Assembly: GCF_023168405.1 (NCBI RefSeq)
Contig: NZ_AP025285.1
Coordinates: 1-64,000 of the forward strand
From: Leptogranulimonas caecicola
GTDB lineage: Bacteria > Actinomycetota > Coriobacteriia > Coriobacteriales > Atopobiaceae
Direction: 5' to 3'
Length of the DNA: 64,000 nt
The position numbers and the translations under genes were made by a program. How positions within the stretch are numbered: position 1 is the first letter of the stretch; each line of letters starts with the position of its first letter. The notes beneath the pieces were generated by a model that saw only the letters and a list, made by a program, of their open reading frames with translations, was not told where the DNA came from and searched no databases. This document shows, piece after piece, positions 48 to 32,297 of the stretch.

Positions 48-77
48 TTGCCAAGTTTTCAACATGGGCTTTATAAT
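48..77 (+). promoter_or_regulatory. dnaA promoter with embedded DnaA-box-like site
   Basis: A perfect -10 box TATAAT lies at 72-77 and a -35-like TTGCCA at 48-53, giving an 18-base spacer. The spacer contains TTTTCAACA (56-64), the same 9-mer that occurs twice upstream of dnaB. A second near match, TTTTCATCA, lies at 4-12. A DnaA-binding site between -35 and -10 would fit autorepression of dnaA, which is known in other bacteria. The promoter call rests on sequence match only. Confidence 0.6.
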
Positions 78-100: not shown

Positions 101-1720
101 GTGAAGTTCATGGATGTATTACAAGCCTCGGATGCCCGGCTTTTATGGGAGGACGCGCGTTCTATTTTGCAGTCCCAAGGGGCTACTGAGCAGCTTTTAA
201 ATCTCATGGCTTCCTGCAATCCTTTAGCGCTCGAAGACAGTCAGCTGCAGCTGAGCATCCCTTCGAGCTTTGCTAACAGGCTCTTAGAGCGCGAGCGAGA
301 CCAGGTAGAAAAGGCGTTGAGCCAGGCAGCCTTTGAGCCCACCACTTTCATGATTGCTGGGGCTCAAGCCTCGTCGCCGGCACCTTCCGCCCCAGAGCCC
401 ACCGTGAATACTGCGGCCGCTCAGCCTCAACCGACTTTCACTCCCGCTGCCACTCCCTCGCCTCTTCCGCAGACCCTCGCTTCATCTCCTGCAACCCTGC
501 AGCCAGAGGCGCCGTCAAAGTTCAAGGCCAACCCCTCTTTTGGGGCTCAGACCTCGATGACCATGGAGCAGTGGCAGGCCTATCAGCGTCAGGCTTCTGT
601 GGCCGAGACTCCTGCGCCCCCTCAACCTGCAGCAGCGCAGGTGACCGAGGCTGCACCTAAAAACCCGCTGGTAGAGATTGCGGCCGAGAAAGACGCCACC
701 CTTACCTTCGACACTTTTGTGGAGGCCGAGGAAAACCGTTACGCCCTTCAGGCTGCAAAACAGGTGGCTAACGGCTCGCCCCAGTACAACCCCCTCTTCA
801 TCCACGGTAGCTCAGGCTTAGGTAAAACCCACCTGTTGCGTGCCATTCAAAACTACATTGCCGTGAACGACCCTTCCCGCCAATGCGTCTATCGCATCGC
901 CACCGACTTTCGCGATGACTACGTCAAGGCTATGCAGGGAGACCGCTCGGTAAAAGATGCACTTACCCGCAATTACCAAAACATCGACGTGTTGATCTTA
1001 GATGACATCCAACATATCGCCAACGCCCAAGGAACCATGGAGTTCTTCTTCGATACGTTCAATTACCTGATGAGCAACGGCAAGCAAGTGATTCTAGCTG
1101 CCGACGTTCCACCCGCAGAGATTGGCATGGATGAGCGCTATTCCAGCCGCATGAGTCAGGGTTTCTCGGTAGCTATACATACACCTACCTTGGAATTCAA
1201 GCGAGTACTCATAGAGACGTTTTATGAGCGCATGCATGCAGAGGGCATTCCTGGCACCCTTACTCGCGACGATCTAACTCTTATGGCAGATAGGGCTGGA
1301 GGAAACATCCGCTCTATCCGGGCTTTTGTACAAGATTGCCTGCTGCGCTCCACCCATCAAGAAAACGGGCGCCTGGAGCCAGCCGACATCATGGCCGCTG
1401 CTGCAGAGCGTTGGTCCCGCGAAGGCCTTCATATCTCTATCGAGGACATCCAGTCGCTGGTGCAGAGCACATACTCGGTATCGCGGCAGGATTTAGTGTC
1501 CAACAAGCGCAATAAAGAGATCGCCCAGCCACGCCATATCGCCATTTGGCTTTCGCGCGAGCTCACCGACTCTACACTGCAAGAGATCGGGCGCCATTTT
1601 GGTGGCCGCACCCATGCCACAGTGAAGCATTCCATCGCCTGGGTGGAGGAGACCATGGAGACCGACAGGCTCTTTCAAGACCGCGTCAACCGCCTGCGCG
1701 ATAGATTAGGAGGCTCATAA
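101..1720 (+). CDS. dnaA: Chromosomal replication initiator protein DnaA
   Basis: DnaA is the AAA+ ATPase that binds DnaA boxes at oriC, melts the origin and recruits the replicative helicase. The start is GTG at 101, preceded by an AGGAGAAGG ribosome site. Domain I covers about residues 1-80. A long Pro/Ala/Gln-rich linker (domain II) runs to about 195. The AAA+ core begins near LTFDTFV (about 200), with Walker A GSSGLGKTHLL near 236 and Walker B VLILDDIQ near 296. Domain IV carries the DNA-binding signature near residue 500. That signature reads GGRTHATVKH where most bacteria have GGRDHTTV/GGRDHSTV, so the Asp and the first Thr, both in DNA-contacting positions, are replaced. At 539 residues it is longer than average because of the linker. 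dnaN follows after a 261-base spacer that looks like the origin. Confidence 0.98.
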   Translation: MKFMDVLQASDARLLWEDARSILQSQGATEQLLNLMASCNPLALEDSQLQLSIPSSFANRLLERERDQVEKALSQAAFEPTTFMIAGAQASSPAPSAPEPTVNTAAAQPQPTFTPAATPSPLPQTLASSPATLQPEAPSKFKANPSFGAQTSMTMEQWQAYQRQASVAETPAPPQPAAAQVTEAAPKNPLVEIAAEKDATLTFDTFVEAEENRYALQAAKQVANGSPQYNPLFIHGSSGLGKTHLLRAIQNYIAVNDPSRQCVYRIATDFRDDYVKAMQGDRSVKDALTRNYQNIDVLILDDIQHIANAQGTMEFFFDTFNYLMSNGKQVILAADVPPAEIGMDERYSSRMSQGFSVAIHTPTLEFKRVLIETFYERMHAEGIPGTLTRDDLTLMADRAGGNIRSIRAFVQDCLLRSTHQENGRLEPADIMAAAAERWSREGLHISIEDIQSLVQSTYSVSRQDLVSNKRNKEIAQPRHIAIWLSRELTDSTLQEIGRHFGGRTHATVKHSIAWVEETMETDRLFQDRVNRLRDRLGGS

Positions 1721-1981
1721 AACCCCAGGTAAATGCCCTGGAAACTCGATGAGGACTTTCTCGACATCCCAGGTGCGAAAACCCTGAGAATGATGTTCAT
1801 AAACCGCATGTTTCTGTAGAGGATTTCCACGCGCTCTGAACTTCTGTAGAGAAAATCGAGAGTTTTAAACAGGGACGAATGTTCGCTTCACCGCAAGTAC
1901 GCTGGGAAAACAGAGGTTTTGAACATATCAACATGTCCTACTAATTACTACTAATTATTTTTTATTTATAAGGAGATAGTA
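1721..1981 (+). other. oriC: Probable chromosomal origin (oriC) in the dnaA-dnaN spacer
   Basis: Four DnaA-box-like 9-mers are visible: TTATGAACA (minus strand, 1794-1802), TTTTAAACA (1863-1871), TTTTGAACA (1917-1925) and ATATCAACA (1925-1933). All end in AACA instead of the canonical CACA. Immediately downstream, CTACTAATTA occurs twice in tandem (1938-1957), followed by an AT-rich run to about 1971. This order (boxes, CTACT-type triplets, AT-rich run, dnaN) resembles the basal unwinding system with DnaA-trios known from Bacillus subtilis. TTCTGTAGAG also occurs twice, at 1811 and 1841, 30 bases apart. No canonical TTATCCACA is present. Origin function is inferred from sequence and position. 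Confidence 0.65.
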
Positions 1982-3106
1982 ATGCGCTTTGACGTCAGCA
2001 AAACCACGCTCCAGGATGCTATCGCCATCGTCTCGAAGGCCACAGCCTCCGGCTCTACGCTCCCCATTCTCACCGGCATTCTTTTGAAGGCTGAGGAAGG
2101 CGAGCTTACGCTCCAGGCGACCGACTTGGATGTGTCGCTGCGCCACACCATTGCCGCCAACGTGCGCGAGTCTGGCTCTACCGTGGTCTCTGGCAAAATT
2201 CTGGCCAACCTGGTGAAAACCTTGCGCGGCTCCACTGTCTCCTTTGATTCCGATCACAATAGCATCCAGGTGAAATGCGGTAACTCCCGCTTCAATCTCA
2301 ATACGCTCAACCCAGTGGATTTCCCTGAGTTCCCTCAGATCGATCCCGAGAAGAGTGTGACTCTGCCGGTGGACACCTTGGCCGACATGGTCAATCGCGT
2401 GTACAAGATGACTTCTAAAGACCTTTCTCATCCTATCTTGGGCGGCATCTACCTTACAGTGGATGAGAATCTGGTGCGTCTGGTGGCTACCGACTCCTAC
2501 CGTTTGGCGGTCTGTGACACCAATGTAGAGACTTCTACGTTGACCGAGAGCTTCCAGGTGATCGTCTCTGGCAACGCGTTCCACGAGGCGCTCTCCACGT
2601 TCCCCTCTACCACCGATGACGGCAGCGCGGCAGAGGTGGTGTTGGGAGCCACTGATTCCCAAGTGAGCTTTAGGTGTGGCAATACCCTGTATGTGTCTCG
2701 CTGCATTGAGGGCAACTTCCCGGATTATCGCCAGCTTTTGCCCAGCTCCTGCACCACTTCGCTCACACCGCAGTTAGGGGAGTTGCAGGATGCGCTCAAA
2801 TGCGTCTCGGTAATGACCACTCAGAACCCCCGCGTGCGCTTTGACGTGGATGTGGATGGTGCTCGAGTGACGCTCTCTGCGGTCAACGCCGACATGGGCG
2901 ATGCGGTGGAGGTGTTGGAGGACATTGAAGTAGAGGGGCAGAACGTCTCCATTGGTCTCAATCATCGCTATGTCTCTGACTGCTTGGCAGCCCTGGGGGA
3001 CCGCGAGACGGTGTCCATCGAGCTTTTGGGTGAAATGCAGCCGGCTATCTTCAAGTCCTATGGTAAGCCCAACTACTTGCAGCTCATCATGCCCACGAGG
3101 CTCTAG
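1982..3106 (+). CDS. dnaN: DNA polymerase III beta subunit (sliding clamp)
   Basis: DnaN forms the ring-shaped dimer that tethers the replicative polymerase to DNA. It is 374 residues, the normal length for three repeated clamp domains. The N-terminus (MRFDVSKTTLQDAIAIVSKA) and the C-terminal ending (YLQLIMPTRL) are typical of the family, the latter being the conserved P(V/M)R end of the clamp. ATG 1982 follows AAGGAGAT at about 1970-1977. recF starts 3 bases after the stop, so the two are very likely cotranscribed. The AT-rich element in front of it doubles as its leader. Confidence 0.97.
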   Translation: MRFDVSKTTLQDAIAIVSKATASGSTLPILTGILLKAEEGELTLQATDLDVSLRHTIAANVRESGSTVVSGKILANLVKTLRGSTVSFDSDHNSIQVKCGNSRFNLNTLNPVDFPEFPQIDPEKSVTLPVDTLADMVNRVYKMTSKDLSHPILGGIYLTVDENLVRLVATDSYRLAVCDTNVETSTLTESFQVIVSGNAFHEALSTFPSTTDDGSAAEVVLGATDSQVSFRCGNTLYVSRCIEGNFPDYRQLLPSSCTTSLTPQLGELQDALKCVSVMTTQNPRVRFDVDVDGARVTLSAVNADMGDAVEVLEDIEVEGQNVSIGLNHRYVSDCLAALGDRETVSIELLGEMQPAIFKSYGKPNYLQLIMPTRL

Positions 3107-30318: not shown

Positions 30319-30899
30319 TGCACCTTGCGTTTTTATGAACGGCTTTCCTAGGGCTCCACAGAGGGCTCTAAAGAAAGCTGCCAAGAAGCCCGGCCACAGT
30401 TTCAGGGGACTTACAAGGCTCTTGTGACTGTGAGCTGGGCTTTTTCTATAGATCGATCGCCATGGGTTGTTAACAACCCCCTATTTCGACAATCCTGGGC
30501 GAGGGGTTGCCTAATTGGACACTTCAAGTCAAGGGCTATTTTTATTTATAAGGTGTGCTCTTTTTGGACAGCGACTCCCCCTTTGGCTGGGTTTTTGAAA
30601 ATAACACAGCATCTACCTGGTGGTTTATGAAGGTGCGAAGCAGCTGCGAGGCGAAATCCCAGGTATTTGGGGCAACGGGGAAAGAGCGAACAATCGTTCG
30701 CAAAATGTTGAAAAGAATTTTTCCGAGGGCACTAAAACATGTTGAAAACGTTGAAAACCCAGAAAGCGGCAGGACAGAGCCTTACCCCTTAACAACATCG
30801 GCCTGTTGAGAGTGGAAAAGCAATCATATATGAAAACAACGGAGGGCTTGGTTTCGGAGTACTATGCAGTCCGTGAACTCTGGCTCAAAGGAGCGTGCA
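30319..30899 (+). promoter_or_regulatory. Long non-coding dnaB leader with repeats shared with the oriC region
   Basis: This 580-base gap has no credible gene and is more AT-rich than its surroundings. It contains the palindrome GGGTTGTTAACAACCC (30464-30479); TTTTATTTATAAGG (30540-30553), identical to the 14-mer in front of dnaN at 1960-1973; two exact TGTTGAAAA sites (30706-30714 and 30740-30748) plus CGTTGAAAAC (30749-30758); and CGAACAATCGTTCG (30687-30700). CATGTTGAAAAC at 30738-30749 also occurs, reversed, at 55-66 in the dnaA promoter. It looks like a DnaA-binding regulatory region for dnaB or a secondary DnaA-binding locus. Confidence 0.55.
30687..30700. promoter_or_regulatory. Candidate LexA/SOS box
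   Basis: CGAACAATCGTTCG has the intact GAAC-N4-GTTC core of the Gram-positive LexA box (CGAACRNRYGTTYC) with 12 of 14 consensus positions. It lies about 200 bases upstream of dnaB, which is not a usual SOS gene. Confidence 0.4.
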
Positions 30900-32297
30900 A
30901 TGCCTTCAGCCTTAACCCCCGCCGGCTTTAGCGGCAGGGACGCTGCCCCCACAATGCCCCAGGATATCGAGGCAGAGCAGTCGGTGCTCTCGGCCATGCT
31001 GCTTTCCCCTGATGTATTGCAAGAATGCCTGGTAGAGCTGCGTGACGAGGACTTTTTCATGCCTCGTCACCAAACCATCTTCTCCACCTTGCGCGACATG
31101 TTTGACGCATCGCTGCCTGTCGATCCTGTGACGTTGGCGGACAGGCTCAAGTCCTCCAAGCAGCTGGAGGCCATCGGCGGCCCCCGCTACATCACGGAGA
31201 TCACTTCCAACACCTTCGCGCTCTCCTCTTGGCGCCATTACATGGAGATGCTCAAGCGCGATTCCACCCTGCGCCAGCTCATCACCGCCACCGCAGAGAT
31301 CTCCAGCTTGGCTTTCGACGCGCCAGAGGACACCAAAGAGGTCATCGACTCTGCAGAGCGCATGATCCTCTCTGTGACCGACCGCGACGTGCGCTCCAAC
31401 TACATCACCATGCAAACGGCCATGCAGGACCTCTACCTGCAGCTTCAGGAGCAGGCGGCCGCCGGCGAGGATGCTTTAGGTGTCAAGACCGGCTTCCAGC
31501 AGCTGGACCACAAGCTGTTGGGTCTTCGCGAGGGTCAAATGGTGGTAGTGGGCGCCCGCCCTGGCGTGGGCAAGACCTCCTTCGCCCTCAACCTGGCGGT
31601 GCAGGCGGCGGAGAACGGCGCCACGGTGGCTTTCTTCTCTCTGGAGATGAGCTCTACAGAGATCGCCCAGCGACTGCTGGCTGCACGCTCTGCGGTGGGC
31701 TTGCAAAAGATCCGCAGCGCCAACATCTCCGGTGAGGAGTGGCCTGCGCTGCTCCAGGCCTCCGAGGAGATCTCCAAGCTTGACATCCTTATCGATGACA
31801 CCCCCGGCACCACCGTCACCGAGGTGCGCGCCAAGGCCCGCCGCATGCTCCATAACAAGGAGAAGGCAGTGGTCATCCTGGACTACCTCCAGCTGGTGAG
31901 CCCGCCACCCTCCAAGCGCTCGGACTCCCGCGCCACCGAGGTCTCGGAGATGAGCCGCGGCATCAAGATCATGGCCAAAGACCTAGGGGTGCCCGTCATC
32001 GCCCTCTCGCAGCTCTCTCGTCAATCGGAAAACCGCACCGGCAAGCGCCCTCAGCTCTCCGATCTGCGTGAGTCCGGCGCCATCGAGCAGGACGCAGACA
32101 TCGTCATCCTGCTGGACCGCTCCACCACCCCCGAGGAGGCCGAGCGAAAAGACCGCCCCGACGAGGGCATCACCGAGTTCATCGTCGCCAAGAACCGTTC
32201 CGGCCCCGTGGGCACCATCGAGATGGTGTTTCTCAAAGACCAAACCAAGTTCATGGAGCTGGACCGCACCCATGCCGACATGGCGCCTCCAGCCTAG
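30900..32297 (+). CDS. dnaB: Replicative DNA helicase DnaB
   Basis: DnaB is the hexameric 5'-3' helicase of the replication fork. The N-terminal domain begins at MPQDIEAEQSVLSAMLL. The RecA-like domain has Walker A GARPGVGKTSFALNLA and further motifs FFSLEMSSTEIAQRLL and VVILDYLQLVSPP, then QLSRQSENR. Length from ATG 30900 is 465 residues, normal for the family. ATG 30900 is preferred because AAAGGAG lies 6 bases upstream; ATG 30864 in the same frame adds 12 residues. No dnaC or dnaI neighbour exists, and DciA at 4206 is the likely partner. No intein is present. Confidence 0.96.
   Translation: MPSALTPAGFSGRDAAPTMPQDIEAEQSVLSAMLLSPDVLQECLVELRDEDFFMPRHQTIFSTLRDMFDASLPVDPVTLADRLKSSKQLEAIGGPRYITEITSNTFALSSWRHYMEMLKRDSTLRQLITATAEISSLAFDAPEDTKEVIDSAERMILSVTDRDVRSNYITMQTAMQDLYLQLQEQAAAGEDALGVKTGFQQLDHKLLGLREGQMVVVGARPGVGKTSFALNLAVQAAENGATVAFFSLEMSSTEIAQRLLAARSAVGLQKIRSANISGEEWPALLQASEEISKLDILIDDTPGTTVTEVRAKARRMLHNKEKAVVILDYLQLVSPPPSKRSDSRATEVSEMSRGIKIMAKDLGVPVIALSQLSRQSENRTGKRPQLSDLRESGAIEQDADIVILLDRSTTPEEAERKDRPDEGITEFIVAKNRSGPVGTIEMVFLKDQTKFMELDRTHADMAPPA

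Follow-up and report, generated by a model that had tools for sequence, protein, structure and literature searches.

Loss of Asp433 from DnaA goes with predicted DnaA boxes relaxed at position 6 in Atopobiaceae and relatives

Few protein-DNA pairs of bacteria are as conserved as DnaA and its box. The first 64,000 nucleotides of the Leptogranulimonas caecicola chromosome (NZ_AP025285.1; hereafter the window) carry box-like 9-mers beside dnaA that lack the C found at position 6 of the canonical family, TTWTNCACA. A preliminary description placed oriC in the dnaA-dnaN gap, likened its layout to the Bacillus unwinding system, and proposed that position 6 of the box had shifted in specificity from C to A. 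The locus thus raises two questions: whether the gap is the origin, and what accounts for its boxes. The features of the gap are as follows.

1721..1981 (no strand): predicted oriC, the dnaA-dnaN intergenic region, from the box cluster, sampled skew and layout
1794..1802 (minus): predicted DnaA box TTATGAACA, read in the sequence
1863..1871 (plus): predicted DnaA box TTTTAAACA, which is TTCTAAACA in the closest relative
1917..1925 (plus): predicted DnaA box TTTTGAACA, at the place of the B. subtilis-type proximal box 6
1925..1933 (plus): predicted DnaA box ATATCAACA, at the place of the trio-proximal box 7
1934..1937 (plus): 4-bp spacer TGTC, read in the sequence
1938..1957 (plus): two copies of CTACTAATTA (1938-1947 and 1948-1957), DnaA-trio-like, equivalent to CTATTACTACTACT in most relatives
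1955..1971 (plus): AT-rich run in the sequence, likely the melted region
1982..3106 (plus): dnaN (TIGR00663)

The replicon is one contig of 2,001,235 bp, and dnaA starts 100 bp into the window, in the gene order rpmH, a gene with an ATPase domain, dnaA, dnaN, recF. Sampled once per 100 kb, GC skew was for the most part positive between 0.2 and 0.8 Mb and for the most part negative between 1.4 and 1.9 Mb, and it changed sign locally at dnaA, around base 1. The gap therefore adjoins dnaA and dnaN at a skew switch that is noisy and consistent with an origin, which was the outcome of the skew check that had been proposed.

All four 9-mers close to TTWTNAACA that had been reported in the gap are present, three of them exact. 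The site at 1925-1933 has one mismatch, at position 1, and shares base 1925 with TTTTGAACA; the site at 1794, given earlier with no strand, lies on the minus strand. The window contains six TTWTNAACA sites against 0.83 expected, a number reached in 0 of 100 shuffles. Genome-wide there are 50 such sites in 2,001,235 bp, and at this mean density three within 261 bp have P = 4.6e-8, so that DnaA-box-like sites are clustered in the gap more densely than chance would give. The C at position 6 of the TTWTNCACA family is absent from all four oriC boxes and from the dnaA promoter box. The reported lack of canonical boxes in the gap was borne out: TTWTNCACA does not occur there, and its three sites in the window all lie away from dnaA. 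When the suggested genome-wide search was run, TTWTCCACA (16 sites versus 20 for the reversed pattern) was neither enriched nor clustered elsewhere, and NTWTNCACA was likewise not enriched in this genome (216 versus 213 reversed).

As had been described, the boxes are followed by tandem repeats and an AT-rich run, TTTTTTATTTATAA coming after the two copies of CTACTAATTA. On the bottom strand, read 3′ to 5′, this pair gives GAT GAT TAA, twice. The published search rule for a basal unwinding system (BUS) asks for three or more NAN trios no farther than 16 bp from a box that departs from TTATCCACA at two positions at most (PMC8287927). Box 7, ATATCAACA, has two mismatches and is followed after 4 bp by GAT GAT TAA in phase, and hence falls under this rule; box 6, TTTTGAACA, has three mismatches. 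The same succession (two boxes, a spacer of a few bp, trios resembling CTATTACTACTACT and an AT-rich run before dnaN) was found in most gaps examined across Coriobacteriia, in other families too, and is therefore an ordinary, class-wide feature. It shares with the B. subtilis oriC BUS and its predicted homologues (PMC8287927) the tandem boxes, the short spacer, the 3′-GAT-5′-type trios, the AT-rich run and the location between dnaA and dnaN. Unlike the BUS of that study, the boxes here are without C at position 6, and the trio run is interrupted (two GAT GAT TAA blocks), whereas relatives have about five trios in phase. From its position, the skew, the box cluster, the spacer, the trios and the class-wide conservation of the layout, we conclude that region 1721-1981 is almost certainly the chromosomal oriC, an ordinary replication start site with a Bacillus-like layout, and to this extent the preliminary description holds. 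By analogy with the basal unwinding system, DnaA would bind the tandem boxes at 1917-1933 and be guided across the 4-bp spacer onto the trio-like repeats (1938-1957), and the AT-rich run beside dnaN would then open.

The initiator gene and the codons of its recognition helix that matter here are listed below.

101..1720 (plus; start at GTG 101 or ATG 110): dnaA initiator, with the non-canonical recognition helix GGRTHATVKHS (TIGR00362; Pfam Bac_DnaA and Bac_DnaA_C; domain IV aligned to PDB 1j1v)
1610..1612 (plus): codon of Thr504, at the base-contacting Asp433 position of E. coli (1j1v alignment)
1616-1618 (plus): codon of Ala506, equivalent to Thr435 (1j1v alignment)
1625-1627 (plus): codon of Lys509, equivalent to Leu438 (1j1v alignment)

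The protein has the AAA+ domain III and the HTH domain IV of a DnaA initiator; its match to TIGR00362 (E 4.8e-96, 322.5 bits) is under the cut-off of 343.9. Among named relatives the nearest is Olsenella sp. KGMB02461, whose DnaA is 95% identical, and the genome is accordingly an Olsenella-like one of the Atopobiaceae. Over its length, the window's DnaA is only 30-36% identical to DnaA of the sister Coriobacteriaceae, and it appears to be evolving unusually fast. Within the canonical box-reading set (R399, P423, D433, H434, T435, H439), the equivalents of the Arg, His434 and His439 are retained, and Asp433 and Thr435 are not conserved. Both of the latter are among the base-contacting residues (PMC7561715), and Asp433 has been described as conserved in all bacterial classes (PMC8235120). 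Residue 433 is Ser, Thr or Lys at each of the 43 DnaA loci of Atopobiaceae that were examined, a figure that includes two near-duplicate entries; it is Asn in several Collinsella-family lineages, and Asp in all remaining sampled relatives.

We then counted the base at position 6 of TWTCxACA sites in the dnaA-dnaN region of Coriobacteriia, with the genomes split by residue 433. From dinucleotide shuffles, each base would be expected at roughly one site, or fewer, in each group. Genomes with Asp433 have C 53, A 46, G 3 and T 1 (n = 103), and genomes without it G 39, A 30, T 10 and C 7 (n = 86). G or T thus occupies position 6 in 4/103 versus 49/86 sites (Fisher 4e-17, with related genomes treated as independent). 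C boxes persist in some genomes lacking Asp433, namely L008 (TTATCCACA), L202, and box a of L193. Genome-wide, counts of TTWTCGACA across 199 Coriobacteriia genomes failed to tell the two groups apart, and NTWTNCACA was not enriched in the window's genome, so that nothing usable could be drawn from scattered sites. Motif EM run without a seed on intergenic regions drifted to AT-rich motifs in two families, and was applied to the outgroup only; a degenerate codon search for Asn433 proved too noisy.

A second, independent locus, which shows the contrast between the two groups most clearly, is found about 1.5 kb before dnaA.

Genome 1,999,706-1,999,799 (L112 18471-18564; two convergent pairs; outside the window): four predicted convergent DnaA boxes, TTTTCCACA, TTTTCTACA, TTTTCGACA and ATTTCAACA

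The geometry of this array is conserved across Coriobacteriales. In the upstream sequences 98 pairs had gaps of 13-14 bp, against 0-2 at each other gap tested; because the gap is this specific, boxes can be detected with position 6 left free. Position 6 was A or C in 90/90 array boxes of Asp433 genomes, whereas G or T occurred in 39/94 boxes of the Asp433-less ones (Fisher 3e-14, and 2e-12 after one near-identical Collinsella clade was collapsed, kin being counted as independent). With positions 5 and 6 both left free, the figures were A or C in 116/116 versus G or T in 31/84. Position 7 is also looser without Asp433 (A 86, T 12, G 2, versus A 90, C 2 with it), and positions 5, 8 and 9 show no loosening. 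Among arrays fetched later, those of the Asp433 genomes G254, G236 and G245 have A or C only, and G062, a repeat of a counted genome, agrees. One of two Asn433 genomes has a G6 box and a C6 box, and the other only A6. The Atopobiaceae arrays contain G or T in 5/5 of those detected, and in the sixth genome no array was detected. As a separate observation, the four-box array sits in the promoter region of a gene between rpmH and dnaA (L112 18576-19892, plus strand) for a 439-aa protein with HATPase_c (Pfam PF02518) and a weak winged-helix-like match. The array suggests either a bipartite origin or DnaA control of this next gene.

These counts bear on the proposal of a strict C-to-A shift, of which one part stood and the other did not: the comparative data back a changed box specificity, but among Asp433 relatives A is already found at 46 of 103 sites and C at 53. 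A at position 6 is therefore normal in the class, the change being that C becomes rare and that G and T appear. A shift to A would explain why the window's genome has A in its promoter box and in each of the four boxes of the gap, and why the boxes upstream of dnaA are nearly all A in Atopobiaceae. However, sister genera have G or T at the corresponding oriC boxes, and in the upstream array of this very genome four boxes side by side each have a different base at position 6 (C, T, G and A), which is better fitted by relaxation to N than by a shift to A. We consider a strict switch improbable and dropped it, since A is ordinary in Asp433 relatives and the genome's own array is mixed. The persistence of C boxes (L008, L202, one in L193 and one in the window's array) likewise points to specificity that is relaxed, not switched.

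The variant box had also been reported in the dnaA promoter and twice before dnaB, and TTTTCAACA was recovered at all three places.

56..64 (plus): predicted DnaA box TTTTCAACA in the dnaA promoter, read in the sequence
30483..30491 (plus): ATTTCGACA, with G at position 6, in the rplI-dnaB region
30706..30714 (minus): predicted DnaA box TTTTCAACA before dnaB (ORF 30864-32297), read in the sequence
30740..30748 (minus): second predicted DnaA box TTTTCAACA before dnaB, read in the sequence

Upstream of dnaA, TWTCxACA boxes were counted in Atopobiaceae, the start codons of other families being guessed, and have at position 6 A 38, G 6, T 4 and C 1; upstream of dnaB the boxes of Atopobiaceae have A 27, G 16, T 4 and C 4. 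Both promoters agree with the pattern seen in the gap and the array. The pair before dnaB has a spacing of about 34 bp (32-46); some of the Atopobiaceae share it, and some Collinsella have such a pair in much the same position. It reads TTTTCCACA twice in L146, a Collinsella with Asp433, and TTTTCAACA twice in L143, an Asn433 relative. The rplI-dnaB region (30319-30863) is probably a DnaA-controlled dnaB promoter. Near-identical AT-rich strings ending in TATTTATAAGG lie beside DnaA boxes both before dnaN (1957-1973) and before dnaB (30537-30553); they may mark a second origin-like element or be a coincidence.

Low-affinity boxes are frequent in origins, and C boxes remain in L008 and L202, as might be expected if specificity were unchanged and the boxes had drifted to weaker sites, with cooperativity compensating. 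Such drift would hardly be confined to position 6 and, less, to position 7, with positions 5, 8 and 9 of the same sites fixed, nor would it track the loss of Asp433 in separate lineages and at four loci; we regard it as quite unlikely. It is more improbable still that another regulator than DnaA binds the TTTTCNACA sites: the boxes are predicted from sequence, and they lie at the trio-adjacent box positions of oriC and in the dnaA promoter, and their places correspond to the TTTTCCACA boxes of Asp433 relatives.

On a tree built without the recognition helix, site 433 needs five changes, four of them forced by supported branches, so that Asp433 was lost four to five times, and G6 boxes follow most of these losses. 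In independent pairs, G6 was gained in the same direction as Asp433 was lost in a mean of 2.7 cases, and in the opposite direction in 0.0. With only four independent pairs a sign test cannot reach significance, and the association rests on its consistency across loci and lineages. Loss of Asp433 thus appears to go with predicted DnaA boxes that accept any base at position 6, in Atopobiaceae and relatives. The anatomy of oriC, the loss of the residue, the box distributions and their association were all directly seen in these genomes.

Thr435 and residue 438 are also altered in Atopobiaceae, which speaks against residue 433 as the sole cause. The change in specificity could be real and yet stem from T435A, L438K or a helix shift, with the loss of Asp433 a passenger. 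Ala435 does go with most of the Atopobiaceae losses, and L175, a Collinsella with Asp433 and Ala435, has only A6 among its strict matches. The closest contrast argues otherwise: L193 (Asn433; NTI) equals its Asp433 (DTI) sisters at 435 and 438, yet it alone has G6 and T6 boxes, and its upstream array carries TTATCGACA. In this lineage G6 was gained once after a change at 433 alone among the recognition residues compared. Moreover, the Asp433 genomes with Ala435 (L175, L177 and L201) are without G6. The passenger explanation is therefore unlikely, if a little less so than drift or a strict switch.

We consider it probable that this is an origin whose boxes deviate through the loss of Asp433, position 6 being relaxed to G and T and position 7 to T in Atopobiaceae, to give boxes of the TTTTCNACA type. 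Somewhat less firmly, we favour the view that a single residue, 433, acts as the switch for position 6 of the box and, in part, for position 7: Asp would confine the box to A or C, and Ser, Thr, Asn or Lys would also allow keto bases, so that the sampled Atopobiaceae and several Collinsella lineages would have rewritten their origins and their dnaA and dnaB promoters after repeated loss. The Asp433 carboxylate may take hydrogen bonds from the amino groups that C and A present in the major groove, and disfavour the keto groups of G and T; with Ser, Thr, Asn or Lys in its place this amino-base filter would be gone, and G and T would be admitted at position 6. Such a filter would account for the use of either C or A in Asp433 genomes, for G and T being the only newcomers, and for the slight loosening of position 7, where the contact has been published. 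That the change at 433 caused the change of base, and for this hydrogen-bonding reason, is what we infer from the association. Against a contact at position 6, the E. coli contact of Asp433 has been placed at box position 7 (PMC8235120). Context also matters, since Thermotoga maritima DnaA, with Ser at the aligned position, still uses a CCAC core (PMC10316083).

Related cases are known. In Epsilonproteobacteria the box core is also lineage-specific and was tied by the authors to substitutions in DnaA domain IV (PMC5043019); there, however, position 5 is fixed to T, the core TTCAC is kept and a C6-to-G box is unbound, whereas here position 6 loosens to G or T and Asp433 is lost. The T. maritima protein, in which our alignment places Ser at the Asp position, has a divergent box, ACCTACCAC (PMC10316083), but this keeps the CCAC core, unlike TTTTCNACA, and residue 435 is Pro. 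A further parallel, discussed in PMC8235120, is the ATP-DnaA boxes of E. coli that have C at position 7: there too the specificity lies at the bases attributed to Asp433; in that case Asp433 is present and the base of the box varies, whereas here the residue varies between lineages. In the literature searched, a search that is incomplete, we found no description of Asp433 loss with box relaxation in Coriobacteriia, which appears to be a new, testable variant of the known co-divergence of DnaA and its box.

Atopobiaceae and Collinsella are common gut and oral bacteria. In Atopobiaceae and in some Collinsella, programs that look for origins by TTATCCACA-like boxes could count too few sites or put them in the wrong place. 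The Atopobiaceae, without Asp433, together with the repeated losses in the sister family, would offer a natural set of mutants in which to read and test a recognition code of DnaA.
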